Below are positions 85 to 25,600 of a DNA stretch of 26,334 nt, one piece after another. Source of the stretch: Desulfobacterales bacterium HSG17 (GTDB lineage Bacteria > Desulfobacterota > Desulfobacteria > Desulfobacterales > Desulfococcaceae); the NCBI GenBank assembly GCA_030377945.1, contig JAUCGD010000027.1, positions 1-26,334 of the forward strand, given 5' to 3'. The number at the start of each line of letters is the position of its first letter. Within the stretch, counting starts at the first letter, position 1. The notes under the pieces were generated by a model. The model had not been told where the DNA came from. It did no database searches and saw only the letters and a program-made list of their open reading frames with translations. The position numbers were made by a program, and so were the translations under genes.

Positions 85-2034
85 ATGTATGAACATCTTT
101 TTTCACCCCTGAAATTAGGGAAGACAGAATTAGCAAACCGTATCTGTCTCCTGGCCCATCGGACCAATTTTGGCAGAGGCGGAGTATTAAACGACCGCCA
201 TATTGCCTATTACCGCCGACGTGCCCAGGGAGGATGCGGATTGATTATCGTTGGTGAGCTATCTATTCATCCTGATGATCGGCCCTGGGAAAGTCTGATT
301 GATTTACAGGAGCCAGGAGTTACAAAGGATCTGAAAAAGCTCACAGATGCTGTCCATGAATTTGACACCCGTGTATTTGCCCAGTTAAACCACCACGGAT
401 TTCAGAGCAGCGGACATATTACCCGTAAATCCGTATGGGGGCCTTCGGCTGTTTCCGATATAGTATTCGGGGAAACCTGCAAGCCTATGGAAACAGAAGA
501 CTTTGCAGAACTTTTGGATGCCTTTGTCCAGGCTGCCATCAAGGTTAAAGAAAGCGGTTTTGACGGCATAGAGATTGACATGGGGCCGGAATCCCTGCTC
601 CGACAGTTTTTGTCTCCCATCTGCAACCACAGAGGAGATGAATACGGCGGAAGCCTGGAAAACAGGATGCGCCTGCCTTTGCAGGTTGTGGATGCTGTCC
701 GTAAGGCTGTTGGCAGAGATTTTACAATTGGTGTCTGCCTTTGTGCAGATGAAAAATTCTGGGGAGGCATAAGTCCTGAAGAATCAGTACCCATGGCCCA
801 GACCCTGGAAAAAACAGGACAGATTGATTTTATTAACGTATCAGTTGGAACCTATTATAATCTCCATATGATTATGCCTTCTCTGCATATTCCCTACGGG
901 TTTACAATTGAAACAGCCGAGACTGTGAAAAACGCTGTAAGCCTGCCTGTTTTTGCAAGTTACCAGATAGGTTTTCCAGGCATGGCAGAGAACATTATTG
1001 CAGAAGGGAAAGCTGATGCCGCAGGTTTTGTAAGATCCGTAATCTGTGATCCTGACATGGCTGTAAAGGCCAAAGAGGGAAGAATCAAAGACATAAGATA
1101 TTGCGTCAAGGATAATAAAGGCTGCATAGGCCGCCTGAACCAGTCCAAGTCTCTTGGCTGTATCCAGAATCCCCAGATTGGACATGAACCACTTACAGGC
1201 GAGGATGTTCTTGTACCTGCGGCAAACAGGAAAAAGGTCATGGTCATTGGAGCAGGGCCTTCAGGAATGGAAGCTGCACGGGCAGCCTGTGAACGGGGGC
1301 ATGAGGTAGCGGTTTATGAAAAGGAATCTGAAATTGGGGGGCAGGTCAATCTTATCGGGAAACGTCCTGGACGTGAATCCATGCCCGGAGTTGTTCGTTA
1401 TCTCAAGCACATGCTGGAAAAACTGGAAGTACCTGTTCACACCGGGGTTACCGTAACTCAGGAATTAATCCTTGAAGAAAAACCAGATGCAGTGGTTATT
1501 GCAACAGGTTCCATACCTGAAACAAAACCCTTTCCAGGCACTTACGGTCCGCCTTCGGTTCTTACAGGATGGGATGCTATCAAAGGAACGTATCCTGTGG
1601 GAGAAAAGGTTCTTTTTATTGATGAAGACGGTGGACACCATGCTATGGCAACAGCCGAACTCCTGGCTGGTCAGGGCAAAAAGGTGGATATAATCACCAG
1701 CGACCTTTTCATTGGTATTGAACTGGCACCTCGTGGTGAACTTTACCTGGGAAGACAGCGGCTGCTTCAGCAGGGAGCCACTTTTACCACGGATGTTGAG
1801 GTTCTTGAGATAAATGATAAAAAGGTCAAAGCGCGTGATATTTACACCAACGAACCTGTTCTTTATGAAGATTATGATACCATAGTGCTTGATGTCGGTA
1901 ATGTGGCCGAAGATGCTCTGTATAAACAGATCAAAGGCCAGGTTAAAGAGGTTTACAGGACAGGGGATTGTGTAGCGCCAAGGGGTATTGACATGGCTAT
2001 AATCGAAGCAAGAAATGTGGGAGAATTATTGTGA
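85..2034 (+). CDS. FadH/Old Yellow Enzyme-family NAD(P)/flavin oxidoreductase (mycofactocin-type, copy 1)
   Basis: This 649-residue protein has the layout of 2,4-dienoyl-CoA reductase (FadH) and trimethylamine dehydrogenase. An FMN TIM barrel (about 1-335) is followed by a cysteine region and an FAD/NAD(P) half starting with KKVMVIGAGPSGMEAAR (about 387). Two family signatures are altered. The 4Fe-4S motif normally reads C-x2-C-x3-C-x11-C; here C340, C347 and C359 are present but the second position is Asp343. The barrel motif that usually carries a catalytic Tyr (H-G-Y-L or H-S-Y-L) reads G-P-E-S-L-L, with Ser170 at the Tyr position. It overlaps the next gene by 4 nt (GTGA). The company of ETF genes and mftF suggests the mycofactocin FadH/OYE group (inference). 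The ATG has only a weak upstream purine stretch; the 84-nt leader has a weak promoter-like TTGTCA at 8-13 with a poor -10. Confidence 0.88.
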   Translation: MYEHLFSPLKLGKTELANRICLLAHRTNFGRGGVLNDRHIAYYRRRAQGGCGLIIVGELSIHPDDRPWESLIDLQEPGVTKDLKKLTDAVHEFDTRVFAQLNHHGFQSSGHITRKSVWGPSAVSDIVFGETCKPMETEDFAELLDAFVQAAIKVKESGFDGIEIDMGPESLLRQFLSPICNHRGDEYGGSLENRMRLPLQVVDAVRKAVGRDFTIGVCLCADEKFWGGISPEESVPMAQTLEKTGQIDFINVSVGTYYNLHMIMPSLHIPYGFTIETAETVKNAVSLPVFASYQIGFPGMAENIIAEGKADAAGFVRSVICDPDMAVKAKEGRIKDIRYCVKDNKGCIGRLNQSKSLGCIQNPQIGHEPLTGEDVLVPAANRKKVMVIGAGPSGMEAARAACERGHEVAVYEKESEIGGQVNLIGKRPGRESMPGVVRYLKHMLEKLEVPVHTGVTVTQELILEEKPDAVVIATGSIPETKPFPGTYGPPSVLTGWDAIKGTYPVGEKVLFIDEDGGHHAMATAELLAGQGKKVDIITSDLFIGIELAPRGELYLGRQRLLQQGATFTTDVEVLEINDKKVKARDIYTNEPVLYEDYDTIVLDVGNVAEDALYKQIKGQVKEVYRTGDCVAPRGIDMAIIEARNVGELL

Positions 2035-3989
2035 GTGAATTCAAATATCTATTTTCGCCGCTGAAGATCGGGTCAGTGGTGATACCAAACAGGCTCCATT
2101 TTGCTCCCCACATGACCAATTATGCGGAAGACAACCTGATAAGCGACAGGCATATTCACTATTATCAGGAGCGCACAAAAGGGGGATGCGGACTTATAAC
2201 AACCGAAGAGATGGGAATTCATCCAACTGACCATCCCTATGATAAACTGGTGGATGCATATGAGCCGGAAACCATTCCCGGATTTCAAAAACTGACCCGC
2301 GCTATTCATGAATACGACGGTAAAATCTTTGCACAGCTTAACCATAATGGAATGCAGGGAGACAGCAAAATATCCCGACTTCCGGTGTGGGGCCCGTCTG
2401 CGGGAAAAGACCCCATTTTCAGGGAAACATCCAAGGAAATGGAGATAGAAGATATAAAGGAGTGTATAGAATACTTTGCCATAAGTGCCATAAATGCAGT
2501 TGAAGGCGGTTTTGACGGTATTGAAATACAGCTTGGGCACAGTTCTCTGGTGCGCCAGTTTCTGTCTCCTTTGACAAATCACAGGGAAGATGAATACGGC
2601 GGCAGTTTTGAAAAACGTATGCGCTTTGCACTTGAGGTAAATACTGCTGTAAGAAAAGCAGTAGGCCCTGATTTTGCATTGGGTGTCCGGCTGAATGCAG
2701 ATGAAATGCACCCCAAAGGCGGGCTTACCCATGAGGATGCAAAACAAATTGCCATATGCTTTGACCAGAGCGGTGATCTTGATTTTATGGATCTGAGTGT
2801 GGGAACTTTTTACAACCTTTATCTTGTTGAAGGATCAATGCACACACCTCTGGCATATACAGCTCCTCTTGCCGCAGGTATCCGCTCGGTTATAAATTTG
2901 CCGGTATTCTGTACCAACAGGATCAATGATCCCCATCTTGCAGAAAAAATTCTTGAAGACGGACAGGCTGATATGATCGGCATGGTTCGGGCCCTAATCT
3001 GTGATCCTGAACTTCCCAACAAGGCAATGGAAGGCAGAACCGAAGATATAAGAAACTGCATTGCCTGCAATCAGGGCTGCATCGGACGCATGGGGCTTGG
3101 TCATAAACTGGGATGTCTGCATAATCCGGCAGTTGGTGAAGAAAAAGAACTGGGCATGGGAACCCTTGCTCCTTCAGATACACCCAAAAAAGTGGTGGTT
3201 ATCGGGGGAGGTCCTGCCGGGCTTGAAGTTGCACGGGTAGCAGCATTAAGAAAACATAAAGTAACCCTGTTTGAAAAAAGCGAAGATGTTGGAGGACAAA
3301 ACATCATTGCAGGAAAGGCCGCAGGCCGCCAGGAAATAACAGGCGTAACCCGCTGGCTGGTGAGCCAGTTGAACAAGCTGGATTTTGATATGCGCCTTGG
3401 GGTTGAAGCTGATGAAGAAATGATCCTCAAAGAAGATCCTGATGTGGTTGTTATAGCCACAGGATCAATTCCCAAAACAAATCCTTTTCCGGGCGAATAT
3501 TCTGCACCCCAGGTTATTACAACTGTTGACATCCTGACCGGAGTTCATGAGACCGGAGACAAGGTACTGCTTATTGATCTTGACGGACACCATCAGGCAA
3601 CAGGAACTGCCGAACTGCTGGCAGATCAGGGTAAAAAAGTACATATGCTCACTTCATCCCTTTTTATCGGGTCAGCCCTGGGACCTCTTCAGGATCTTTA
3701 TCTTACCCGGCAGAGACTTGCCCGCAAGGGGGTAACTTATACACCTGATATTGCAGTACTGGAGATACAGGGAACACTGGCTAAAGGACTTAATGTCTAT
3801 TCCAACGAAATGTTTGATTTTGACGGATATGATACAATAGTTCTGGCAGCAGGGAATGTGGCTGATGACGGTCTTTACCATGCACTTAAAGGCAGGGTAA
3901 AGGAAATATACCGGGTGGGCGACTGTGTGGCCCCAAGAAAAACCGACATGGCTATTATTGAAGGCCATCGTATAGGACGAATGATATAG
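2031..3989 (+). CDS. FadH/Old Yellow Enzyme-family NAD(P)/flavin oxidoreductase (mycofactocin-type, copy 2)
   Basis: This 652-residue paralogue of the preceding gene has the same architecture: FMN TIM barrel, Fe-S linker, then an FAD/NAD(P) half beginning KKVVVIGGGPAGLEVARV near residue 385. Its 4Fe-4S motif is complete (C343, C346, C350, C362), so it should carry the cluster that copy 1 probably lacks. The barrel motif reads L-G-H-S-S-L-V-R-Q-F, with Ser172 where FadH and OYE relatives have the proton-donating Tyr; a His is retained. The start is GTG at 2031, inside the stop of copy 1 (4-nt overlap), pointing to translational coupling and perhaps to a heteromeric enzyme. The substrate is unknown. 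It is likely soluble and cytoplasmic, passing electrons between NAD(P)H, flavin and a partner such as the adjacent ETF (inference). Confidence 0.88.
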   Translation: MSEFKYLFSPLKIGSVVIPNRLHFAPHMTNYAEDNLISDRHIHYYQERTKGGCGLITTEEMGIHPTDHPYDKLVDAYEPETIPGFQKLTRAIHEYDGKIFAQLNHNGMQGDSKISRLPVWGPSAGKDPIFRETSKEMEIEDIKECIEYFAISAINAVEGGFDGIEIQLGHSSLVRQFLSPLTNHREDEYGGSFEKRMRFALEVNTAVRKAVGPDFALGVRLNADEMHPKGGLTHEDAKQIAICFDQSGDLDFMDLSVGTFYNLYLVEGSMHTPLAYTAPLAAGIRSVINLPVFCTNRINDPHLAEKILEDGQADMIGMVRALICDPELPNKAMEGRTEDIRNCIACNQGCIGRMGLGHKLGCLHNPAVGEEKELGMGTLAPSDTPKKVVVIGGGPAGLEVARVAALRKHKVTLFEKSEDVGGQNIIAGKAAGRQEITGVTRWLVSQLNKLDFDMRLGVEADEEMILKEDPDVVVIATGSIPKTNPFPGEYSAPQVITTVDILTGVHETGDKVLLIDLDGHHQATGTAELLADQGKKVHMLTSSLFIGSALGPLQDLYLTRQRLARKGVTYTPDIAVLEIQGTLAKGLNVYSNEMFDFDGYDTIVLAAGNVADDGLYHALKGRVKEIYRVGDCVAPRKTDMAIIEGHRIGRMI

Positions 3990-5723: not shown

Positions 5724-7625
5724 TTGAAATCATTAATAACATCATTTGATACTTTACTCATCGCTGCCGCCTTCATCATCATGATAATGGGCCTTTCCGG
5801 GCGCTGGTCTTTATGGCAGAAAAAAAAGGACAGAAACATTTCCGGTGACTGGGGCAGGGTAAAAGATTATATTGTAAAACATGCTGAAATACTTAAACGT
5901 CCCAATGTCGGCGCAGCCCATATGGCAGTATTCTGGGGTTTTGTTCTGCCAATGACTGTAATTGTACTGGCACAATTCGGATTTTCCATACCAGGTGTTC
6001 CTGCACGTATTCTCTCCTTTTTACAGGAAGCAGCAGGAATTGTCATGCTGGCAGGAACCTTTTACCTGTTCTTTCGCAGGATTCAGTCAGGAGAAAGCGA
6101 AGGACCAAAAAGAACCCTTATTCCCATGTTCATCATGCTGGTTATCCTGGTAACAGGTTTTCTGGCAGAAGCATCACGTATCCGTATAACAGGAAGCTGT
6201 TTTGAATGGGCTTCACCCCTGGGCTGGGCATTGTCTTTTGGCACACCTGCTTCGCCTTTGTTCATGCAGCTTATGATTCGGGTTCATTTTTTCGCAGTTC
6301 TGCTCCTGATTGCTTCCATACCCTTTACTTTTATGCGCCATGTGGCAGCCTCACCCTTGAATATATTTTATAAAAAACAGGGACCAAAGGCAGCATTAAG
6401 AGAGATTAAACCGGAAATCGGTGAAACAGGCGCAAAAACAGCAGAGGATTTTTCCTGGAAACAATTACTTGAAACCGAAGCCTGCGTATCCTGCGGCAGA
6501 TGCGAAGAAAACTGCCCGGCTGCTATCTCCGGCAAATCCCTTTCACCAAGAAAGATTATCCGAAAAATTCTGGAACAGGCAGAAGCAGCAGCGTGTCAGG
6601 AATGCTTTATCAGCACATCTCCAAAGCAGCTTCTTGAAAATACAATCTCCGGCGATGAAATCTGGGCATGTACAACATGTATGGCCTGTGTAGAACACTG
6701 TCCTGTATTTGTTGAAGCAATGGACAAAATTGTGGATATGCGGCGCTACCAGGTAATGGGCAAGGGGAATCTGCCTTCTGAAGCACGACCCATGATCCGC
6801 GATCTTGAACTTTACGGAGATGTCCAGGGTAAAGGCGCTGCTCATCGGGCAGACTGGGCCATGCACCGTGATGTTCCTCATATAGCAGATGTAAAAGATG
6901 CCGAAGTTCTGTTTTGGGTCGGCTGTTCAGGCGCATTTCATCCCAGAAATAAGGAAACCGCCCTGGCAATGGTAAAAATCCTCAAGGCCGCAGACATTAA
7001 TTTTGGCATACTGGCACAAGACGAACTCTGCTGCGGTGATCCGGCCAGAAGGCTTGGGGAGGAAACCCTGTATCAAAATCTTGCAAAGCAAAATATTGAC
7101 AGATTTACGCAGCATAAGGTGAAAAAGATCGTTACTCTCTGTCCCCATTGCCTTAATACCCTGAAAAACGAATATCCTGAACTGGGCTGCAATATTCCTG
7201 TGGTTCATGCAACGGAATTTGTTATGGATCTCATAAGCAAAAACAAGATAACTTTAAAATATCCTGTGGCTGAAAAAATGGCTGTTCACGATGCCTGTTA
7301 TCTGGGAAGATACAACGAAGTTTACCAGCCCCCAAGGGATATATGCAAATCAGTTCCGGGGACTCAGCTCAAGGAACTTAAACGCAACAAAGAAAACGGG
7401 TTCTGCTGCGGAGGCGGAGGCGGAAGAATGTGGCTTCATGAAAACACAGGGCAGAATATCAACCTTATTCGCGCCCAGGAGATTGCTGAAGCTGATGTTG
7501 ACATGATCGGAACATCCTGTCCCTATTGCCTGGTAATGCTGGATGACGGGGTAAAATCCCTGGAAAACGAAAATATTCCACTAGTGGCTGATATTATTGA
7601 CATTGTGGCAGATGCTATTCAGTGA
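5724..7625 (+). CDS. Membrane-bound Hdr-like Fe-S oxidoreductase (ETF:quinone oxidoreductase type)
   Basis: This 633-residue protein has an N-terminal membrane part of about five helices (about 10-27, 63-85, 98-118, 130-147, 180-203) resembling the NarI/HdrE cytochrome b type. Two 4Fe-4S ferredoxin motifs follow: CVSCGRCEENCP from C254 and CTTCMACVEHCP from C316. The C-terminal half has two CCG domains of heterodisulfide-reductase D type, with CCGD at 436-439 and FCCGGGGGR at 560-568. Proteins of this layout next to ETF genes are thought to take electrons from ETF and pass them to menaquinone; that role fits here. The start is TTG, chosen because AAGGAG (5711-5716) lies 7 nt upstream and the protein then begins with its first membrane helix. 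The gene starts 12 nt after the cytochrome stop. Confidence 0.9.
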   Translation: MKSLITSFDTLLIAAAFIIMIMGLSGRWSLWQKKKDRNISGDWGRVKDYIVKHAEILKRPNVGAAHMAVFWGFVLPMTVIVLAQFGFSIPGVPARILSFLQEAAGIVMLAGTFYLFFRRIQSGESEGPKRTLIPMFIMLVILVTGFLAEASRIRITGSCFEWASPLGWALSFGTPASPLFMQLMIRVHFFAVLLLIASIPFTFMRHVAASPLNIFYKKQGPKAALREIKPEIGETGAKTAEDFSWKQLLETEACVSCGRCEENCPAAISGKSLSPRKIIRKILEQAEAAACQECFISTSPKQLLENTISGDEIWACTTCMACVEHCPVFVEAMDKIVDMRRYQVMGKGNLPSEARPMIRDLELYGDVQGKGAAHRADWAMHRDVPHIADVKDAEVLFWVGCSGAFHPRNKETALAMVKILKAADINFGILAQDELCCGDPARRLGEETLYQNLAKQNIDRFTQHKVKKIVTLCPHCLNTLKNEYPELGCNIPVVHATEFVMDLISKNKITLKYPVAEKMAVHDACYLGRYNEVYQPPRDICKSVPGTQLKELKRNKENGFCCGGGGGRMWLHENTGQNINLIRAQEIAEADVDMIGTSCPYCLVMLDDGVKSLENENIPLVADIIDIVADAIQ

Positions 7626-7683
7626 ACAGTTGTCAGTAAACAATAAATAGTGAGCAGTGAACTGCTCACTGATAACTGTTCAC
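7622..7683. repeat. Nested inverted repeat in the gap before ETF beta
   Basis: An outer pair, GTGAACAGTT (7622-7631) and AACTGTTCAC (7674-7683), is perfectly complementary. Inside it, GTGAGCAGT (7650-7658) and ACTGCTCAC (7661-7669) form a second perfect inverted repeat. All arms are variants of a cagtgaacagt-type word, the style of small palindromic elements scattered between genes in some genomes. It begins at the stop codon of the upstream gene and ends 21 nt before the ETF beta ATG. It may be a mobile palindromic repeat or an RNA processing or attenuation hairpin. Confidence 0.75.
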
Positions 7684-7704
7684 TGTAAAAAATGTGAGGA
7701 TAAA

Positions 7705-8589
7705 ATGAAGATAATCGTTTGTGCAAAACAGATTCGTTATACATATGCCAGGACAGGAAAAAATCCTGACATGAAGTATATCAATCCTGAAGATTCCATA
7801 TTCAGGGTTAATCCTTATGATGAGGCAGCCACAGAGCTTGCTCTGCGTCTGAGAGATACTGTCGGAAACGGGGAGATCAGTCTTTTGACTCTGGGAGACA
7901 TGATTGCTGAGTATCAGGTTCGCCGATGTCTGGCAACCGGACCGGATCATCTTTTTCAGATAGGTTTTAACGCTCATAAAAATCCTGATCCACTTTCCCA
8001 GCCTGATCCCTGGGTTAAGGCAGACCTTATAGCAAAAGCTGCAAAATCCCTTGGAGCTGATCTTATCCTTTGCGGAAAAGAATCCATGGACAGGGCAAGC
8101 GGTCAGGTTGGCGCTCTTGTGGCACAGCAGCTTGATCTGCCTTTTGTTTCGGCAATAACTGATATTTCCTTTGATAAATCAAGCAAAAAAGTTAAGGTTC
8201 AGAGAAGCGCAGGCCGGGGAGTCAGGGAATTTATAGAATGCTCCCTTCCGGCTGTTTTCAGTGTTGATCTGGGCGCAGAACTCCGGCTGCCCACTGTTGA
8301 GTCCAGAAAATTGGCAGATGCCTATGAAATCCGCACTCCTGAAATCAGCAAAGAGACAATCCCTGCAAAGATTACCTGCAAGGATATATTTCAACCCCGG
8401 CCAAGAGCAAAAATCATTCCAGCCCCTGCCAGCAGCATGAATGCTTATGACCGTATTCTTCAACTGCTGACAGGAAGCAAGGTTGAGAAAAAAGGTGAAA
8501 TGCTCACCGGAAGCACGGATTCACAGGTTCAAGGAATTATCAACTTCTTAAAAGAAAATGAGTTTATTGAATCAGAAAAAGCCATCTGA
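7705..8589 (+). CDS. etfB: Electron transfer flavoprotein beta subunit (mycofactocin-associated type)
   Basis: This 294-residue ETF beta begins MKIIVCAKQI and carries the family core NPYDEAATELALRL. The AMP/nucleotide-site segment LCGKESMDRASGQVGAL lies near residues 121-137, and CSLPAVFSV comes later. I chose the ATG at 7705, preceded by GAGGA (7696-7700). A GTG-initiated extension from 7657 exists, but its codons lie inside the inverted repeat and look non-coding. It should pair with the ETF alpha encoded at 3998-4996. Its last 32 nt (8558-8589) also hold the remnant start of an mftF gene, showing that etfB and mftF originally overlapped. The neighbouring HEPN/ATPase cassette now separates them. 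Confidence 0.92.
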   Translation: MKIIVCAKQIRYTYARTGKNPDMKYINPEDSIFRVNPYDEAATELALRLRDTVGNGEISLLTLGDMIAEYQVRRCLATGPDHLFQIGFNAHKNPDPLSQPDPWVKADLIAKAAKSLGADLILCGKESMDRASGQVGALVAQQLDLPFVSAITDISFDKSSKKVKVQRSAGRGVREFIECSLPAVFSVDLGAELRLPTVESRKLADAYEIRTPEISKETIPAKITCKDIFQPRPRAKIIPAPASSMNAYDRILQLLTGSKVEKKGEMLTGSTDSQVQGIINFLKENEFIESEKAI

Positions 8590-8624
8590 AATTCCTCCTG
8601 AGTACAGGCTGAGATCATCGGCAG
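8552..8624 (+). repeat. Left copy of the duplication flanking the cassette (mftF 5' end)
   Basis: This 73-bp stretch matches 12292-12364 at 70 of 73 positions; mismatches are at 8562, 8590 and 8598. The offset between copies is exactly 3740. Beyond it the similarity continues patchily, with gaps, to 8658 (matching up to 12410), where both copies end in GCCTGTACT. It spans the end of etfB and the first 22 codons of an mftF copy. Confidence 0.95.
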
Positions 8625-8629
8625 TATAA
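8558..8629 (+). pseudogene. Truncated duplicate of the mftF start
   Basis: The ATG at 8558 opens a frame of 23 codons, then TAA at 8627-8629. The peptide begins MSLLNQKKPSEIPPEYRLRS, against MNLLNQKKPSDIPLEYRLRS in the intact gene at 12298. The fragment overlaps the end of etfB by 32 nt. A two-base loss after codon 22 relative to the intact copy shifts the frame into the stop. It is the ancestral mftF start left behind on the left side of the inserted cassette. Confidence 0.85.
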
Positions 8630-8658
8630 AACTATCCTGCTGATGATAAGCCTGTACT
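8601..8658 (+). terminator. Long hairpin, probable terminator after ETF beta
   Basis: AGTACAGGCT (8601-8610) pairs perfectly with AGCCTGTACT (8649-8658), and ATCATCGGCAG (8614-8624) pairs with CTGCTGATGAT (8637-8647) with one G-U. This gives about 21 paired positions around a 12-nt loop. TTTTCCTTTCCTTTCT follows, a loose T-rich tract. The equivalent part of the intact mftF (12341-12410) forms a weaker version, so this structure appears to have arisen by small deletions in the broken copy. If functional it would end etfB transcription before the cassette. Confidence 0.6.
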
Positions 8659-8700
8659 TTTCCTTTCCTTTCTGCTAAAAGATTCCTTTCATTATTTACA

Positions 8701-8742
8701 GTTACAAGGCATTGCACCTCCTGTAAGCCAAAGCCTTGTAAC
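8701..8742. promoter_or_regulatory. Perfect 10-bp inverted repeat upstream of the HEPN-like gene
   Basis: GTTACAAGGC (8701-8710) and GCCTTGTAAC (8733-8742) are exact reverse complements separated by 22 nt, ending 33 nt before the ATG at 8776. The position suits an operator or a leader hairpin for the two-gene cassette. TTGTAA within the right arm could serve as a -35, but I see no convincing -10. Confidence 0.5.
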
Positions 8743-8775
8743 AAAATACCAATTGTCATACTACACAAGGTTAAA

Positions 8776-9384
8776 ATGAGTAGAGATAAAAGACCGGCAA
8801 CTACTTATCTTGATTACCGCTATGCTGCTGAAGTTCATATTGCCGCGTGTAAAGAACTCAGAAAAAGACTGAAAGAAAGTCATGGTCTCTATCGTGATGA
8901 AAAAGACAGGAAAAAAGTCAAACAGGAATTATATTATTTGAGCGGTTATATTATTGAATGTATGATAACTTACGCCCTTGGTTCCTTGCTTGACCGTTTG
9001 AATCCAGACGATAATATTCATGAAGAAAATATTTTGGAAATTGATAAATTGTTGAAAGTTCCAGGACAACAGGATAAACGTAAAATTTCATTTAATTTTT
9101 TTAAAGAAGGCAGCCATTCAATTGAACGTAAATTAAACCATATAAAACAGTATGAAATCAGGGATAGCATTCCAATTATACACAAGGAATACCATAAAAA
9201 TTCTGATTTGAGCGATAAATTTAAACAGCTTCACGAGTCATGGCTACCCCATCACAGATACAAACTTGCAGATGACGTAAAAGGTATATTAGAGAATGAT
9301 AAATTACTATACGATTTTATAGAATTTACAATACAATTTACAAACATGACATACAGCGCTTTTCAATACAGAACACAGGATTGA
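8776..9384 (+). CDS. HEPN-like helical protein, first gene of the inserted cassette
   Basis: This 202-residue, highly charged, mostly helical protein is not a member of any family I can name with certainty. Two segments resemble a bacterial HEPN group: ELYYLSGYIIECMITYALGS (about 55-74), like the hydrophobic 'YLaGYaiEcaLKa' helix, and ESWLPHHRYKLADDVKG (about 155-171), like the 'W-x-x-x-x-RY' element near the end of those domains. A canonical R-x4-6-H RNase motif is not obvious; the nearest is R-K-L-N-H near residue 115. The ATG is preceded by AAGG at 8767-8770. It is followed after 4 nt by the ATPase gene, so the two are probably co-translated. HEPN proteins paired with large P-loop ATPases often act in anti-phage systems, so a toxin-like or ATPase-regulated role is plausible but inferred. 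Codon use is visibly AT-rich compared with the flanking operon. Confidence 0.6.
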   Translation: MSRDKRPATTYLDYRYAAEVHIAACKELRKRLKESHGLYRDEKDRKKVKQELYYLSGYIIECMITYALGSLLDRLNPDDNIHEENILEIDKLLKVPGQQDKRKISFNFFKEGSHSIERKLNHIKQYEIRDSIPIIHKEYHKNSDLSDKFKQLHESWLPHHRYKLADDVKGILENDKLLYDFIEFTIQFTNMTYSAFQYRTQD

Positions 9385-9388
9385 TAAC

Positions 9389-12286
9389 ATGCTTGAAACT
9401 CTTAATAAAATTCGTGAAATTGCATTTGATTTTGATAATTATCAGCAGAATAAAAAAATCCTGGATTATCGTATCCAGCTAAACAATGATTTGGGGATAA
9501 GTGCCTATATTTTAACAGAACATAAAGGGGTAACAGATTATCCTGCCTGCTGTTCAGATAAAATGATTAAAATAAAAGAATTTACTGAAGATGAACTTGC
9601 AGAAGATGATTTTCATAAATTCGTATTTGATAATAAGCAAAAAATAAACCTGGGATACCGCGAAAGACTAAGGTCTTTGCTTGAACCGGATATTGAAAAC
9701 AATTTTGATGCAGATGGAAAATTTCCACCGATAATATCATTTTACAGTTATAAAGGCGGATTAGGACGTACTACTACACTTGCAGGTTTTGCAATCCATT
9801 GTGCATATCACCTGGGAATGAGAGTTTTAATTATTGACGGTGATCTGGAAGCTCCGGGTGTGCCTGCATTTTATGATATAGATGCTGATATTTTAGCAAA
9901 AACAAACGGTATAGTTGAGTATTTTCTGAACAGGAAATTTAACGAAAATATAGATTTAAGTGATTATATAATTCAACTGGATAAAAAATACAGCGGCCTT
10001 GGGGGCGATATTTTTATTTTACCGGCAGGAAATCTTTCTGATAATTTTGAAAATGAAAAATACAGGGTTGACGACTTTGAATTTAATGAAAACCACAGAC
10101 TTCAACAATATAATATTCACCGCACTCATTACCTTGAAGGTCTTGCCCGCTTGAATATTTCCAATCCTGAAAGTATTATGCTTAATTTTGCAGCAATGCT
10201 GAAAGATTTAATAAACAATCCTGATTACAGCCCTGATCTTATACTGATAGATTCTCGGACAGGTTTCAGCGAAATACTGGGGATATTTGTTTTACATATT
10301 TCAGATATAGTTGCAGGATTTTTCAGGGATGAATTACAGGCAAAACCAGGGCTGCATTTTCTTTTTGAAAAAATTGTCGAAAATAAAAAAAAGCAGGAAT
10401 TAGTACTGATAAATTCAATAACATCTGATAGAAAGAGAATAAAAACATTTGAGGAAAATATCAAACTTCTGGCGGAAAAATTTGATACAGGTGAAGGACC
10501 GTACAGTTATTATTTTGCAAGTATTGATGAAGATAACAGGTTAAAAAATCTTGGAGGCGATTCTGAAACAGAAGATGCTGCCTTTATTGAAATGATTACT
10601 CAAAAACAATTCCATTCATATGATAATTTATTTAAAATATTGGAAGGCTGTATAGAAAACAGAAAAACGGACAAAAACGAATTTCATAACAAAATTGACT
10701 CCGGTCAAATAATAATAGAGAGCAAAAAGCAGATATTAAAAGATCTGTATCCTTTTTGTAAGAATATATTCAGTGATAAATTTGATTTTAACACCACTGA
10801 AAAAGATTTTTTAAAAGAAAGATTTTATTACAGGAATGTAATGCTGAATATTTTTAATCCTGATAAATTTCTGATACTGGCAGTTAAAGGAACCGGGAAA
10901 ACTTTATTTTATAAGGCATTGCAGTCAAAATATGTTGTTAACAAACTTAAAACAATGGCTAAAAAAAGCGGAGAATACTATTTTATAAATGTAATAAAAA
11001 ATGAACAGGGAGAATTTCAAAATTTTTATCCTGTTGATAAATTCAGAAAAGAGCAAATAAAAGGAGAATCAGATATTTTTTTCCATCGTTTCTGGATTAT
11101 ATATTTATGGAAATCCGTTTTACTAGAAAGTAAAAGATTAGATATATCTTTTAGTACAGATTTTGAATTACGTGAATTTGTAAGACCCTCTAATCCCAAT
11201 GATTCAGGAATATCATTAGATTTTGTTAAATTGATTAATGATGACAGACTGTTTACCATGATCGAAAAAAATCTTAAAGACTGGGATAAAAGTTTAAATG
11301 CCGGGAATCAGTATTTATTCGCAACGTATGATTTTCTTGACAACATTGTTAAACCTGATTTTTGGGAAACAGGCTACGGTATAGTACCGCTTTTAGAATT
11401 CTGGCGTTATAACCCATATAAACGGATTCTGCCCAAACTTTTTATACGAACAGATCTTTTTAAAAAAATATCAGGTATTACCAATTACGGAAGCCTGGAA
11501 AAAAGTCATTCTTTTAACCTGGAATGGCAAAAAGAAGAATTATTTGCTTTATTATTCAAACAGGTGCTGGCAAAATCAGCACATCTTTTTTTTAATCTCA
11601 TGGAATATAACAAAATTTCACAGGATATTATAAATGAGATAAAAAAAATTGCTGAAAAAAATGATAACCAGATACCTTTGCAGTTCAAATATATACATCC
11701 AATGGTAAGAACTTTTTTCGGATCAAGGATCGGATTTCAGAAAAGAGGGGGAGATTCATATACATGGTTTTATATCAACCTTAGAAATGCTGATGATACG
11801 ATCAGTATCCGCCCTTTTTTAAATATGCTGAGTCTTGCAATTAAAGAAACTGAAAACAGACTTTATGATTTGCGAAAATACATTGAGATACTTCCGTATC
11901 AATATTATGCAAATGCAAAAGTAAGATCAGAATGTGTTAAAGCATATTTTAATGATCTTGCAAAAAATTCAGAAGGTAACAAACCTTTGGAATGTATCTT
12001 TGACTTTATAAAAAATGAAAATAAAATACCTGTTGATTTAAAACGGCATACACTCACAAGAAGTGGATTGAACAGACTTCTTGGATTAATTCTGGAAGAT
12101 AAAGACTATAAAGATATTTTGCAGGGTCAGACTGATTCCAAGCTTAAAGATTTAATGATTTCAAACGGAATATTAAAAGAAACACCTAGACCAGGAGGCG
12201 TGATATTATATAATTTTGCCTATTTGTATAAATTTTACCTGGGTTTAAAAAGTAATCCTAAATCTTCAGCAAATATACGAAAATGA
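9389..12286 (+). CDS. Large dual P-loop ATPase, ParA/MinD-like plus STAND/AAA-like, second gene of the inserted cassette
   Basis: This 965-residue cytoplasmic protein contains two separate nucleotide-binding modules. The first has a deviant Walker A, YKGGLGRTT (about 121-129), then LIIDGDLEAPG (about 147-157) and LILIDSRTGFSEI (about 284-296). These are the hallmarks of the KGGxGRTT branch of the ParA/MinD superfamily found in signalling and conflict proteins. The second has FLILAVKGTGKTLF (Walker A at 500-505), resembling stand-alone P-loop ATPases of the KGxGK(S/T) type, possibly Sll1717-like. The roughly 110 residues ahead and 400 behind match nothing I recognise; the C-terminal part may include a winged helix. 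The gene is AT-rich and fills most of the cassette. Its TGA lies in ATGA (12283-12286), giving an overlapping potential start in frame with mftF. A sensor/activator role for the upstream HEPN-like protein is inference. Confidence 0.75.
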   Translation: MLETLNKIREIAFDFDNYQQNKKILDYRIQLNNDLGISAYILTEHKGVTDYPACCSDKMIKIKEFTEDELAEDDFHKFVFDNKQKINLGYRERLRSLLEPDIENNFDADGKFPPIISFYSYKGGLGRTTTLAGFAIHCAYHLGMRVLIIDGDLEAPGVPAFYDIDADILAKTNGIVEYFLNRKFNENIDLSDYIIQLDKKYSGLGGDIFILPAGNLSDNFENEKYRVDDFEFNENHRLQQYNIHRTHYLEGLARLNISNPESIMLNFAAMLKDLINNPDYSPDLILIDSRTGFSEILGIFVLHISDIVAGFFRDELQAKPGLHFLFEKIVENKKKQELVLINSITSDRKRIKTFEENIKLLAEKFDTGEGPYSYYFASIDEDNRLKNLGGDSETEDAAFIEMITQKQFHSYDNLFKILEGCIENRKTDKNEFHNKIDSGQIIIESKKQILKDLYPFCKNIFSDKFDFNTTEKDFLKERFYYRNVMLNIFNPDKFLILAVKGTGKTLFYKALQSKYVVNKLKTMAKKSGEYYFINVIKNEQGEFQNFYPVDKFRKEQIKGESDIFFHRFWIIYLWKSVLLESKRLDISFSTDFELREFVRPSNPNDSGISLDFVKLINDDRLFTMIEKNLKDWDKSLNAGNQYLFATYDFLDNIVKPDFWETGYGIVPLLEFWRYNPYKRILPKLFIRTDLFKKISGITNYGSLEKSHSFNLEWQKEELFALLFKQVLAKSAHLFFNLMEYNKISQDIINEIKKIAEKNDNQIPLQFKYIHPMVRTFFGSRIGFQKRGGDSYTWFYINLRNADDTISIRPFLNMLSLAIKETENRLYDLRKYIEILPYQYYANAKVRSECVKAYFNDLAKNSEGNKPLECIFDFIKNENKIPVDLKRHTLTRSGLNRLLGLILEDKDYKDILQGQTDSKLKDLMISNGILKETPRPGGVILYNFAYLYKFYLGLKSNPKSSANIRK

Positions 12287-12291
12287 TACAC

Positions 12292-12364
12292 AAGAAAATG
12301 AATTTATTGAATCAGAAAAAGCCATCTGATATTCCTCTTGAGTACAGGCTGAGATCATCGGCAG
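12292..12364 (+). repeat. Right copy of the duplication flanking the cassette (intact mftF 5' end)
   Basis: This is the intact counterpart of 8552-8624 (70 of 73 identical) and covers 6 nt upstream of the mftF ATG plus its first 22 codons. The repeated stretch begins 5 nt after the stop of the ATPase gene, so the cassette ends almost exactly where mftF begins. Confidence 0.95.
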
Positions 12365-13818
12365 AGTATAAAATCATGTCTGCCGGTAATCAATCTGATC
12401 AGCCTGTACTGATTCTCTCTTTTCCATTAAAACTGGTTTACATAAACCAGTTCTGGAAACCTGTGCTGGATTTCTTTACAACACATGATTTTTTCTCACT
12501 TGAACAAATTGCAGAAAATCTCCCTGAAATAAGCCAGCAGCAGGTTGAATTTTTTTTAAACGACCTGGTGCGTAAAGGATTTTTTGAACAGAGAGGTTTT
12601 CCGTTTATAAAGGATGATGATCTCCCTTTTGTTTCTATTATCATACCTGTAAGAAACAGACCTCAAGATATTTCAGCCTGCCTCAAATCCCTTGAAAAAC
12701 TTGACTATCCCGAAGATAAAAAAGAGATTATTGTTGTTGATGATGCTTCTGACGATAATACACCTGAGATAGTAAAAAATTTCTCTGGAGTCAGACTCAT
12801 CCCCCTGACAGAACACAGCCAGGCTTCCTTTTGCCGAAACCGAGCTGCACAGGCTGCAAAAGGTGATATTTTGGCTTTCATAGATTCCGACTGTCTGGCA
12901 GATACTTCATGGCTTAGAGAACTTGTTCCGGCATTCAGGGATGAGTCTTTGGGTGCTCTGGGCGGTCTTGTGGATTCATATTATAGTGAAAAAAAGCTGG
13001 ATCAATATGAAAAGGTCAAGTCAGCCCTTAAAATCGGTTCCTGGTTTAAAAGATCAATGGAAGATGAAAAATTCTTTTATGTACCCACCTGCAATTTCCT
13101 GGTAAGGCGTGAAATATTTCTCAAACTGGAAGGTCTTAAGGAAGAACTTCATGTGGGTGAGGATGTGGATTTCTGCTGGCGATTGCAGGACAGCGGCTCA
13201 ATGTTGGAATACAGGCCAGCAGGCAGGGTTTTTCACAAACACAGAAACAGCCCTTTGCCCTTCTGCTCCAGGCGCTTTGATTACGGAACCTCAGAACCGC
13301 TGCTTCAAAAACTCCATCCTGACAGGATAAAAAAACTGTATCTGCCTCCCAATGAATCCCTTTTCTGGATGCTTTTACCTTTATCCTTGTTTTTTAAATC
13401 AATTATGCTATTAATTCTCTGCATTGGCATCTTTACAGCAGACAGCCTGAATCGTTACACAAAATTGCAAAAAAGAAAGCTGCCCATTGGATTTTTCACT
13501 ATCTGTAAAGCTGTAATACGCAGCTATCTTTCATTTTTATATCATTGTTGCAGTTTTATGTCCCGGTATTATTTGATACTTGCCATATTATTTCTGCCTT
13601 TTGTGCCAAAATTTTCAGCTGTTATTTTTTGTATGCATCTGACAGCAGGAATTGCAGAATATCGAATAAAAGAGGCTGACATGAACCTGTTTATATTTCT
13701 TTTCTATTTTACCTTAGAGCAGCTTTCATATCAGGCAGGAGTCTGGTGGGGATGTATCAGGCACAAAAATATTAATCCTCTTTTGCCAAGAGTAGTACAT
13801 AGAAGGGACAAAATTTGA
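12298..13818 (+). CDS. mftF: Mycofactocin-system glycosyltransferase with PqqD-like N-terminus
   Basis: This 506-residue protein has an N-terminal PqqD-like region (about 1-95). A family 2 glycosyltransferase domain follows, with FVSIIIPVRNRPQDI (about 105-119), EIIVVDDASDDNTPEIV, the nucleotide-sugar DSD motif (D196-S-D198) and GEDVDFCWRL with E288-D289. Hydrophobic segments then sit at about 352-380, 415-440 and 455-480. This order matches MftF, which adds glucose units to premycofactocin at the membrane. I place the start at ATG 12298 because the duplicated copy at 8558 has the homologous ATG. ATG 12283 in the ATGA overlap with the ATPase would add five residues specific to the insertion junction. 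No Shine-Dalgarno is visible, so translation probably depends on coupling. Codons 15-38 lie in a hairpin-forming stretch (12341-12410). The downstream transporter reading frame begins at or just after its stop. Confidence 0.85.
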   Translation: MNLLNQKKPSDIPLEYRLRSSAEYKIMSAGNQSDQPVLILSFPLKLVYINQFWKPVLDFFTTHDFFSLEQIAENLPEISQQQVEFFLNDLVRKGFFEQRGFPFIKDDDLPFVSIIIPVRNRPQDISACLKSLEKLDYPEDKKEIIVVDDASDDNTPEIVKNFSGVRLIPLTEHSQASFCRNRAAQAAKGDILAFIDSDCLADTSWLRELVPAFRDESLGALGGLVDSYYSEKKLDQYEKVKSALKIGSWFKRSMEDEKFFYVPTCNFLVRREIFLKLEGLKEELHVGEDVDFCWRLQDSGSMLEYRPAGRVFHKHRNSPLPFCSRRFDYGTSEPLLQKLHPDRIKKLYLPPNESLFWMLLPLSLFFKSIMLLILCIGIFTADSLNRYTKLQKRKLPIGFFTICKAVIRSYLSFLYHCCSFMSRYYLILAILFLPFVPKFSAVIFCMHLTAGIAEYRIKEADMNLFIFLFYFTLEQLSYQAGVWWGCIRHKNINPLLPRVVHRRDKI

Positions 13819-16970: not shown

Positions 16971-19900
16971 TTAGAATAATGAAATTGAATTGATAAAACA
17001 TCCTGCACCTCCCACATTTTCAGATGGGGGCGGTTGAGGATAATATATTTCATTGCTGTTCTTGTTCGGCTGAGTCTCTTCAGGCATATCAATATCATCA
17101 TCTGCTATGACTTCATCAGGGGATGCAGTGAAAAACCTGACCGGGGGTGACCATTGAGATTCATTATTCTGATTATCATAGAATTTAACACGGCAATAAT
17201 ATTCAGAATTGTATGAAATTGCAGATTCAGGGATTAGAAAATCAGCCAGGTGTTCAGTTGTACTGATATCTGCAACAGGGCTTGAAAAGTCAGAAACAAT
17301 ACTTAACTGCCACCTGGTTTGAAGATGTGAATATCCTTCATGGGAATGTGTAAATAATGATGCTCTCAGTGTAAGGGGCAATAAAACTTTGTTTTCATCA
17401 TTTCCCGGATATATTATTTCCGGTTGAAGGGCTTGAATGATTTCTTTGACTGGTTCACCAGGGTCAGGTTTGTCATCAGAATCAGGTTCATCCGTATCTG
17501 TTTGAGGTGTGTCCGGTTCTTCAGTTTCTGGTTCTTCAGGCTCCGGTGTTTCAGGTTTTGGTGTTTCTTTTACTGTTATTTCTATTTCAGCGGTGCCAGA
17601 GTCACCGTTAAAGTCAGTGGCTGTAAATATAATATTGTATATACCGGGTTTATTAAAGATAATTTCTCCGGGGTTCAGCAATCCTGAATTTTCCGGTCCA
17701 TTGTCAAAATCCCAGTAATATAAAAAGGGCGGTTCTCCGTATACTACGCTGGCCGTTAAATTAACTGATTCTCCTGCTATGATTGTTAAATCTGAAGACG
17801 GAGATATTATATAAACAGATGGAATTGTGTTAACAGGTTCCGGTTCTGGTGGTGCAATTGGTATAAGTTTAAAATCCGTCTGTGCTATTCCTGCTTCATT
17901 TATATTTATCTGTGTTGTTATGGGTTCATATCCATCTGCGTTTATGCTTATTGAAAAGTTCCCAGGTTCCTGGATCATGAGAAAACGTCCGCCAGGACGG
18001 CTGACAGATGATGCATTGGCATCTGTTGTTACTATTGCACCTGTTACAGGAAGACCTGTTTGAAAATCTGTTATGCTGCCTTTAATAAATCCTCCAAGAG
18101 GTGCCTGGGGTCCGTAAATTTTAAGATCATATCCTGTTCCAGTACCTGAAATATCTGCATCATGATGGGCTATTCTCACATAGTATATTCCCTCAGCCTC
18201 ACATGTCCATGAAAGCAGTTCCCCTTTGCCTTCAAGATTGTCCTGCCATTGATCCTGCTGCATCAGTTGAGTAACTCTGTCGCTGGCAAACAGGGTTATG
18301 ACCGTATCGGTATTATTACCCGGATTTGTTGTTTCTATAACATATGGCTGTCTCGTAACAGCGTAAAACTGCACCCAGTCCTCATCTCCTGGCTCATGAA
18401 AATTATGGGTTTGAATTCCAGGAGTTTCAAACCCTTCTGAAAGACCGGCTGAGTTCAGGGTGATATAGCCTGCTTGAATGGCTGTATTATCATCTTCAAA
18501 AACATCAGGTGCAAACTCCTGGGTTATGACAGATGTTAGAGGTTCTGAAATGTTGCCCTGGGTATCGCGGACATATGCGGTTATCATATAGTCTCCGTAT
18601 GAAGTGAAACTATCATATGTTCCCTGGAAAAAGCCGGAATTGTTATCCAGTTCGATAGTTGGCAGATTTTCAATAGGATCTCCGGGAAACTGGAATTCAA
18701 CAGGCGGACTGATAACAGCCCAGACTTTTTCAATATTCCCTGTTGTATTAATATTTTCAATTTCAATGGAAGCGGAAACTTGCCCGTAAAGGCTTTGATT
18801 CGAAGATATTCCCTGTGCTGTGGGAGCATTTCCTGTCAGGAATATCCCGGTTCCCGGTACATTTTTTCTTGCCAGTATTCCGTCATATTTCTCATTGCCG
18901 ATTCCGTTTCCATTATCATCTATCTGGGGGGTCTGTGTTCCTGTTGCAAACCATATGGCATTTTTTGCATGAACAAAAGCTGTATATATACTTGAACCGT
19001 TGGCTATCCTGTTCCAAAAAAATTGTGAGAAGGAAATATCGCCGTTTGAAAAAAAATATGCGGTTTCAATTCCTGATGTGCTTGTTATAACTATGCGGTT
19101 TTTACCTTCAGGCGAAATCAGCTCAGGAATAAAGCTTGCTGATAAAGGTGCATCGTAAATTACAGCAATCTCTCCTGGAATTTTTTTCTGCAAGGCATCC
19201 AGCCATTTATCAAGGTTTTCAGCTTTAAGTTTTTCAGTTTGATTGAGGTTAAAGGCTTTGTCTTGTCCATTTCCAATAAGATAAAGGATCACATCTTTTG
19301 TATTGTTTTCCGCCCATGCACCCAATGCAAATTCCAGGTTGCTCAGGCTGGAAAAACCGTCAATTCCAGGGGAAAAAACTACACTGCTTAAAAAATAGAT
19401 ATCATCATCAGAATAACCCTGGAATTTAAGAGATTCATATGCAAGACCGGTGTTATTTTCAACAGCAGGCCAGAGAGAGTCGCTTTCAGTTCCGCCTGCT
19501 ACAATAACAGCTTTTCGATGCAGAGGATCATTAACACGGATACGGGTAAATGCAGGTGAGGAAGTATTGCCTTTGTTGTCTCTTGCATAAACTGCAATTT
19601 CATAGGTTCCGTTAAAGTTAAAATCATCATACACTGCTTCATAACGGCTTCCTTCATTTTGAGTATATTCAACAGACGGAAGTGACTGCACAGTATTGTT
19701 TGAATCTCCGGGAGAATATCCTGGCGGGCGGATTACTGCCCATACCCTTGCTATGCCGTCTTCATCTGTTACTGAGTCTGCCCGGAGTATGGCTGTATTT
19801 GTATTGATTATGTTCTGTTCAGGGGACACTTGGCCAATAACCGGGTTTTCCCCTGAAATCTGTGTGGCATTTCCAATGTATGTTTTCTGCGCTAAAACTC

Positions 19901-22681: not shown

Positions 22682-25600
22682 TTACAATCCCGATTGCTTT
22701 AAAGCATAAATGACCTCGTCAAGCCCAACCATGTTGTTCCCATTTACATCTACACCTGCTATCACATAATCCAGTCGAATTTCAGCAGATACATCTATTC
22801 CTGCCAGTACCTTCAAAGCAATGATTGCATCTTTCAAATCAATGCCTTTATCCTCATTTATATCACCAACGACAACAGCCGGTGTGCCTCCGCATTCTCG
22901 TTTAACACCAATTTGCAGCGGAATGGACTGATATCCTGATTTATCCTTTGCATAAACTGCAATTCGGTAAAAACCGTCAACATCCAAATCATCAAAAGTG
23001 GCTTTATATACTCCTTCCACTTCCAGATCGGAAAGTTTCCGTGTAGGTATAGCCGTGACAGGGTCAGTCTTATCCGTACTGCTGTCCGGGGGTAATACCC
23101 TGGCAAAAACCGAACTCACACCGTTTAAAGTAGTGATGTTTTCAGCTGTTACAATAACAGATTGCTCACATACCAGAGTTTCTGTGCTTACAGAAAGGTT
23201 TCCGATGGTCGGCGGAAGTGAGGCTGCCACCCTTCCCCTGCCTATTATTATATCATTTTCAAGAAGGCTTTGTGCAATATTGTCAGGCTTACCGTCGCCG
23301 TTTATATCAATCCATGCGGTCTGGTCATACTGCATATATGCCCTGCCATTTAAATATGCCTCATACAGCTTGCCTTTTGAAAAAACAGATTCCCAGAAAT
23401 GGTATGAAAAAGAGTGCCTGCCGCTGTTTAAAAACCAGGCTTTCTGATTTGTTGCTGTGCTTGTTACCACATACCGTTTGCTGTCAATACCTGAAGGCGG
23501 CAGAAAGTTTGATAAAAAGCTTCCTGAGATACAGGCGTCATAAATTAAAATTACATTGCATCCAATGGCGGTTTGCAGTTCATCAAGCGCTTCATCAATA
23601 TCTTTGGATGAAATGGGTTCGTCAATTCCTATTTGAAAAGAGTCGTTTCCGCCATGACCGCTCATGAAAATCAAAACTTCTTCAGGCGGTCCGCTGGCTG
23701 ATGTGTCCGGTACAGGGGTTTTTGCCCATGTTTCGATGGCGTACCCCAATTTTTCTCCAACTGCCTCATCGTCTTTATCATCAATGCCATCCCCGTCTAT
23801 ATCCACCGAATCTTCATGGGTAAGAAACTGGATCTGGTCATGGCCGTACCCCTGTGCATATAGTGTTTGATAAGCTTTTCGGGTAACGAGTTTTGTGGAG
23901 TTCCACAGGGTATTGCCGGGATAGGGGCCTCCGCCTGCAACAATGATTGCTCTTTTATTGAAGCGCTTAAATTGTTCAAAGCTGACTGCACCCTCAAGTT
24001 CGTATGGTGTTTCACCTGTTTTTACAACTTCCAGGCTGTATTGACCCACATCCGGTTGAGCCGGGATTATAAAAGAAATCTCTTTATTGTTAGTAATGGT
24101 GACTGGTGTAATTTCGAATTTTTCATCAATAATCGGTGTATCAGGCTGGGAATGATCCCTTCTGAATATATAAACCTGAATGCCTTCAGCAAATTGCTCA
24201 CCCCGCAGGGTAACCGCCAGTGCATCGTTTACCGTTCCGACATTGGGATAAGCGCCGGTAATTGTAAGAGGCGGTGTGTCATCATCCTTTATGGTAACCG
24301 ATACATCTTCAGGGTCGAAACCGCTGTAATATCCATCATCACTGATAACTGATTCGGTAATGATGACTGCATTCCTGTCTCCGTCCCATATACCGTCATC
24401 AACTGCGGTTATGGTGAGTGGTTGAGGGGTACTCCAGTTGTCAGGGGTGAAAGTAACGGTTGAAGGGCTTACCGTGCAGGCTTCCGGGTTGGAGGTAATC
24501 AGGTTTAGAATTACATTTGCTGTGGGTTTGTTTCCCTTTAAGCTGACGTTGACATTGCCGGAACTTTCGGGTTCACTTACGGTCAATGAAGCAGGATTGA
24601 TTTGAACCAGGTCTGTGTATGCGCTTCCGCTGATTCTAACATCGTCATATCTTGCTTTAATATAGCCTGATTCATCAGCATCAGCATAAACCCTTGCGGT
24701 CAAGTCATTCCAGTTAAAACTCGGCGGATATACAGGTGTTAAAATCGGGAACTTTTTTACTTCATCACCGCAACTGAAAATGATTTCCGAACCAATCAAT
24801 TGTATTGCCAAATAGTATTCCTGGTCAAAAGATATCGGAGTGGAAAATTCTTCTTTAACTATTGTTCGATAATCACTGTAATCCGGGCCACCATATGTTT
24901 CTGCATACGCACGCGCCGTAAGCTGCTCATTTTCATCAATTTGCAGAGCAATTTCTGCCCATACGTCCCCCTCTGTGCCATTATAGGGCAAACCGCTTCC
25001 TGGTCCCCTGCTAATGTTATAGGGTAAAAAACTTAGTCTTGCGACACCCCTGGCCCCTGGCTCCATTTCACTTCCGCTCTCTATCATAACTTTTGCGCCT
25101 ATATATGAAATATTATCCATATCCAGAAAGTATGCACGCATATTTGATCTTTCATCAATGCCTCTGGTAGCTAACCTGAGGCTGCCGTCTACAATTTCCC
25201 TGGTATTTTCGAATTCCGTCCATCTATAAGAATCAATTTTTTCCGATTCAAAGTCGTCGTATGGGGTTCCGTCCTTTGTTGTATAAACATCATCAACAAG
25301 AGCACTGATATATCCGTGCCACTGATTTCCGCCGTCTACACCATAATAAAGTGACTTATTTTTATCCGCATTTAAATTGACTTGAGATCCGAATTGATAA
25401 CTCAACTGATCATTATTGCACTTAAAAATAACTTCGGAATTCGTAATCTCAATTGAAAAGATGTATTCCTTATCAAGAGCAATAGAAGTCGGAAATGTCT
25501 GTTTGTAAAGATCTGCACCGCTTATTGCATCGACTTCTGCACTTGCTAATAGGTTATTATTGTGATCAAAAGTTAACTGTATGAAACAATCGAAATCTTC

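Follow-up and report, generated by a model that had tools for sequence, protein, structure and literature searches.

Desulfobacterales bacterium HSG17 carries, in a metabolic operon on contig JAUCGD010000027.1 (GenBank assembly GCA_030377945.1), an etfB-like gene and an mftF gene that are separated by a cassette of two open reading frames (ORFs), here termed ORF A and ORF B. The window, that is the whole stretch of DNA analysed, comprises 26,334 nt (positions 1 to 26,334, forward strand), and all coordinates are given within it. On either side of the cassette lies a copy of the junction between etfB and mftF, and the features of these two copies are as follows.

7657..8589, forward strand: etfB-like gene (PF01012, E 4.9e-25), C-terminus intact, last 32 nt overlapping the old mftF start
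8552..8680, forward strand: left copy of the etfB/mftF junction with a broken mftF start (ATG 8558, TAA 8627-8629); 73-nt core at 8552-8624
8600..8659, forward strand: left-copy hairpin
12283..13818, forward strand: mftF (TIGR03965, 329.8 bits, above the cut-off of 280)
12292..12364, forward strand: right copy of the 73-nt core; its etfB register retains ENEFIESEKAI-stop
12341..12410, forward strand: right-copy hairpin inside the mftF coding sequence

The duplicated etfB-mftF junction

The two copies form a 73-nt direct repeat (8552-8624 and 12292-12364, offset 3740) in which 70 of 73 positions are identical, the longest exact string common to both being 27 nt. Alignment of 8530-8775 with 12270-12520 scores 172.5, a value that none of 1000 equally sized random window pairs reached (maximum 94.5; 87.5 in a smaller control of at most 200 pairs). 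The homology extends past the core: 8625-8680 aligns with 12365-12432 at 42 identical columns in 56, gaps apart; this distal part alone scores 42, which again none of 1000 random pairs attained (maximum 29.5). Further along, in the tail at 8681-8730, homology is weak and 20 of 1000 shuffles score equally well. Divergence between the copies is uneven (70/73 in the core vs 42/56, or 25% divergent, in the distal part; Fisher p = 0.001), also when the count in the core is limited to positions 3' of the etfB stop (33/35; Fisher p = 0.023). The initial annotation had argued from a 4% divergence that the right copy came with the cassette from a related genome or that the broken copy had drifted; the figure holds in the 73-nt core, but the argument is incomplete, given the 25% just beyond it.

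Three mismatches fall in the core: that at 8562 is silent in etfB and alters mftF, and those at 8590 and 8598 lie past the etfB stop. Read in the etfB register, each copy holds the final 11 codons of etfB with their stop, whilst etfB actually ends only at the left copy and the right copy holds an etfB vestige. Since both copies keep the C-terminal codons of etfB, it was the overlapping etfB-mftF junction itself that was duplicated, and an older arrangement, in which etfB preceded mftF and overlapped it by 32 nt, can therefore be read from the sequence itself.

In the left copy the mftF frame opens at ATG 8558, overlaps etfB for 32 nt up to the stop at 8589, and reads MSLLNQKKPSEIPPEYRLRSSAV before ending at the TAA after 23 codons; the distal part continues in frame as V*NYPADDKPVLFLSFLLK. 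A MftF profile built from 10 close relatives matches this left frame (E 1.6e-8 in a search of three sequences). In the right copy mftF is complete: its ATG at 12298 corresponds by homology to the left start at 8558, a further ATG at 12283 overlaps the stop of ORF B (ATGA), and the closest match of the protein is Desulfonema limicola P0105 (85% identity over 98%). The repeat and its offset, the broken left start with its overlap, the working right start and the original overlapping gene order had all been put forward in the initial annotation, and each was reproduced. It had also proposed aligning the repeats with mftF of relatives to see which copy is native. The left distal part scores 45 against MftF P0109, 41-43 against P0106, P0108, P0112 (43) and P0126, 42 against the right copy and 28 against D. 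limicola, and over its full length the left copy scores highest against the right one (107 vs 96). The comparison does not decide which copy is native; these scores do not tell a donor-borne copy from one made locally and since decayed.

Both copies contain a strong predicted hairpin. That of the left copy folds as RNA at -34.7 kcal/mol (z -7.25; 0 of 200 shuffles as stable) and is followed by the pyrimidine-rich TTCCTTTCCTTTC, and that of the right copy reaches -36.0 kcal/mol (z -6.42; 0 of 200 shuffles), with none of 1000 synonymous-codon draws equally stable; its window ranks second in stability among 535 windows of 84 nt (21-nt step, outside the cassette, up to 15026). The hairpins have a common 5' arm and differing 3' arms, each of which pairs with the 5' arm, and the left 3' arm is near the reverse complement of the common 5' arm. 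A common 5' arm with differing, pairing 3' arms suggests selection for the hairpin or arm-to-arm copying. Because a pyrimidine run follows it and translation in the mftF frame does not go past the TAA, the terminator-like left hairpin may end etfB transcripts; it is absent from the output of a simple terminator scan. A reading of the hairpins as integron attC sites was dropped, no Rfam family reaching its gathering score in the window. The arms also lack the R' and R'' core boxes of attC sites. Searched in viral contigs, a 22-nt hairpin-arm string gave no match.

The ORF A-ORF B pair and its relatives

Three features lie between the junction copies.

8701..8742, forward strand: perfect 10-nt inverted repeat (GTTACAAGGC/GCCTTGTAAC) 5' of ORF A (DNA fold z -2.55, RNA fold z -3.87)
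8776..9384, forward strand: ORF A, 202 aa, probably of the HEPN fold, Rx4-6H motif not conserved
9389..12286, forward strand: ORF B, 965 aa, KGGxGR ParA-like ATPase domain and Sll1717-type P-loop ATPase

ORF A and ORF B are the only ORFs of at least 80 aa between the repeats. Their GC content is 0.31-0.33 (0.24-0.27 at third codon positions, GC3), as against 0.43-0.48 (GC3 0.39-0.42) in the six upstream genes, and neither matches an integrase, transposase or recombinase model. The earlier description of an AT-rich two-gene block that encodes HEPN and ATPase proteins and holds no integrase or transposase thus stands, with the HEPN fold of ORF A as a probable assignment. No R-H pair was seen by eye to recur across the ORF A family, the Rx4-6H pattern occurring in 8 of 11 sequences and being absent from three, and the missing conserved motif makes a plain RNase mechanism for ORF A uncertain. 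A survey of HEPN proteins describes HEPN-T members in which D replaces H and a conserved H lies elsewhere (PMC3710099); H114 and R161 of ORF A would be compatible with that pattern. No PADLOC model matched ORF A, a sequence search of the PDB with its family gave nothing at E 1, and a first structure model was discarded as too poor (predicted local distance difference test, pLDDT, 45.5).

ORF B passes the cut-off of NF047398 (123.3 bits; cut-off 90) and falls below that of NF047389 (46.7 bits; cut-off 75). Its ATPase motifs are KGGLGRT at residue 122 and KGTGKT at residue 500. Within this one protein lie matches to two PADLOC models, PDC-M28B (2e-23) and PDC-M28C (5.6e-18), the PADLOC models used showing no curated cut-off. 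The PDB search with the ORF B family returned eight matches over short N-terminal stretches, to ATPases of the ParA, MinD and iron-sulfur-carrier type. Residues 860-908 also weakly match the PADLOC model of Csx23, a type III CRISPR-associated protein (E 0.0013).

The gene pair recurs elsewhere. A small HEPN-like ORF lies 5' of the ATPase gene, at a spacing of -4 to +11 nt, in all six loci inspected that had enough upstream sequence: three plasmids (Pantoea, Nostoc and Calothrix, from the 12 plasmid records that ORF B matched) and viral contigs L016, L017 and L019 (from 14 viral loci; L018 ends inside the ATPase N-terminus, and L020-L029, ten partial matches, were left out). ORF A aligns with the small ORFs, and four of the six match PDC-M28A (E 5.6e-14 to 0.0072), among them those of Nostoc (2.4e-10) and Calothrix (5.6e-14), which also match Pfam HEPN barely above its cut-off. 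The ATPase of L017 matches 26 plasmid records, and that of Calothrix is encoded by two separate genes. Restriction-system genes neighbour the pair in two plasmids, and in the viral contigs its neighbours are PHROG tail and integrase genes (L017, L019) or an endolysin gene (L016). The Calothrix plasmid locus (L015:4177-7507) has a three-gene form, HEPN, B and C being encoded separately, with a type III restriction gene nearby. In P0103, a protein from a Desulfobacterales metagenome-assembled genome, the N-terminus of ORF A runs into the N-terminus of ORF B, so the order ORF A-ORF B recurs in a related host; P0103 may represent this cassette at another site, broken or shortened by a deletion.

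Several searches returned nothing further. D. limicola does not appear among the proteins matching either ORF (lists of 97 and 6, limited by candidate selection and 90% clustering), nor was any match found among 398 genomes of one other phylum in a search run without a positive control. In viral contigs, ORF A gave no confirmed match, MftF one distant glycosyltransferase only, and the L017 ATPase its own contig only; phage records searched with two ATPase queries and E. coli searched with the DNA of the Pantoea pair gave no match.

Probable insertion of the module and its possible routes

We consider it probable that a two-gene module, acquired horizontally, entered the overlapping etfB-mftF junction by insertion-duplication. 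The incoming module, a HEPN-fold protein with a fused double ATPase, has its relative in PDC-M28, a candidate system of phage defence, and would have arrived in a bacterium with a MftF closest to that of D. limicola. At least ~130 nt of the junction would have been duplicated, probably with the incoming DNA carrying a copy or with repair copying the junction. The left copy would then complete etfB, its remainder being a decaying mftF start, whilst the right copy would preserve the whole of mftF, its start now lying nucleotides away from the stop of ORF B. ORF B may sense or regulate, with ORF A as the effector, and a defence function is suggested by the protein families, by carriage on prophages and plasmids and by the restriction-system neighbours in two plasmids.

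Two versions of this reading differ in the route. Campbell-type integration, which we put forward tentatively, would involve a donor molecule bearing the etfB/mftF junction of a related genome, a single crossover leaving the flanking repeats. It makes an integrase unnecessary and agrees with an insert flanked by direct repeats of an entire gene junction; the left distal PADDKPVL moreover resembles LPDDQPVL of relatives, in keeping with the scores of 41-45 against their MftF and 28 against that of D. limicola. However, the score of 42 to the right copy is barely under that of P0109, the full left copy has the right copy as its best match, and the DD motif is equally expected from hairpin-arm copying; nor does a single donor simply explain both a core that is 96% identical and an adjoining part that is 75% identical. 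Local duplicative repair, which we regard as somewhat unlikely, would begin with a replication stall at the mftF-start hairpin, the junction being copied twice and foreign DNA captured by microhomology, after which the left copy decayed and was partly templated by the hairpin. The presence of a strong hairpin inside the duplicated segment of both copies, the near-complementary arms of the left hairpin and the closeness of the left copy to the right are in accord with such a course, but the 8 mismatches in the 24 positions just past the hairpin (8657-8680) are left unexplained by templating.

Other origins fare less well. Site-specific integration at the mftF 5' end, with the integrase acting in trans or since lost and the identical segments being att-like, would account for the regenerated 5' end of the target gene, as an account of dusA islands reports for those elements (PMC8409611); as none of the ORFs between the repeats encodes an integrase, and the repeat consists of 73-130 nt of target coding sequence in place of the 21-bp dusA repeat, it is improbable. 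The locus does not fit the pattern of an integrase-mediated island, no integrase or recombinase being found between the repeats among ORFs of at least 80 aa, nor that of a transposon insertion, for which the duplicated segment is a 73-130 nt junction and no transposase model matched; no dedicated search for terminal inverted repeats was made. An assembly artefact in which two genomes were joined at the repeat is very unlikely: the window is one contig without a coverage figure, but substitutions and indels distinguish the copies, reading frames and operon spacing stay coherent to either side, and with a longest exact match of 27 nt an assembler with k > 27 would not merge the copies there.

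Insertion-duplication, if it occurred, would make this locus a clean snapshot of a small defence-like module entering a metabolic operon without its own integrase, with the downstream gene spared, and would define an exact, testable empty site. A further idea, which we regard as doubtful, is that duplication of the junction renders the module switchable: the repeats would recombine, excising it exactly and restoring the overlapping etfB-mftF, and whilst it is inserted the untranslated left hairpin would insulate the cassette as a terminator, coupling of mftF shifting from etfB to ORF B through the ATGA.

The surrounding operon and known systems

A mycofactocin survey places the TIGR03965 glycosyltransferase among the core partners (PMC3023750). 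Curated mycofactocin cut-offs are passed by mftF and one OYE_2 gene; the remaining OYE gene and the two ETF genes lie below them, the etfB-like protein reaching 90.3 bits against mft_etfB TIGR04503 (cut-off 200), and no mftA, mftB or mftC model appears among the matches listed for the 15 window proteins scanned (the best 25 for the two OYE genes and the MFS gene), all of at least 80 aa, a scan that ORFs of mftA size fall outside. The initial annotation's term 'mycofactocin operon' is borne out by the two passing genes and is otherwise loose. A scan of genome contigs with MftF gave four weak, irrelevant loci. The two neighbouring OYE-family genes, at 85-3989, both have TIGR03997 (mycofactocin OYE_2) as top model among the best 25 matches listed for these genes and the MFS gene, and only the second passes the cut-off. 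Just 5' of etfB, at 7609-7696, lies an imperfect inverted repeat (34-nt arms 76%, 25-nt arms 80%) resembling a miniature inverted-repeat transposable element or a repetitive extragenic palindrome; the 84-nt window from 7603 is the most stable of the 535 tested, and the etfB start may lie 3' of the listed GTG. Two very long minus-strand genes (16971-22340 and 22682-26305) encode a peptidase C13 (caspase-like) domain, the former also NHL propeller and PKD domains, with weak PADLOC matches to PD-T4-6 and caspase.

Literature searches by system name and by motif found 'PDC-M28' and 'KGGVGR' in no paper of the library searched, which does include papers that name other PDC-M systems, and among the matches listed for integrase-free insertions and mycofactocin in Desulfobacter none concerned the etfB-mftF junction. 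DefensePredictor reports HEPN systems, in a main text that uses no ParA, MinD or PDC term (PMC13092281). The cassette resembles PDC-M28, a PADLOC candidate system with parts A, B and C, in that ORF B matches B and C and the small protein precedes the ATPase; it differs in that B and C are fused in the 965-aa ORF B and in that ORF A has no PADLOC match. This fused PDC-M28-type HEPN/ATPase pair is now placed in a sulfate-reducer-like genome and in prophages. Unlike HEPN-T (PF05168) and the HEPN-MNT toxin-antitoxin systems, ORF A is partnered by a double ATPase and not by a nucleotidyltransferase, and its Rx4-6H is not conserved. For P2/P4 prophage and satellite hotspots, one study describes small variable defence loci of 1-5 kb between conserved genes and proposes homologous exchange (PMC9122126); relatives of ORF A and ORF B in viral contigs likewise sit among tail, integrase or lysis genes, whereas the pair here is flanked by a metabolic operon. 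The dusA integrative elements carry an integrase and a 21-bp repeat, in contrast to a cassette with no integrase between repeats that are a 73-130 nt copy of the junction; they are the nearest described case encountered of a 5'-end insertion that re-supplies the gene start.
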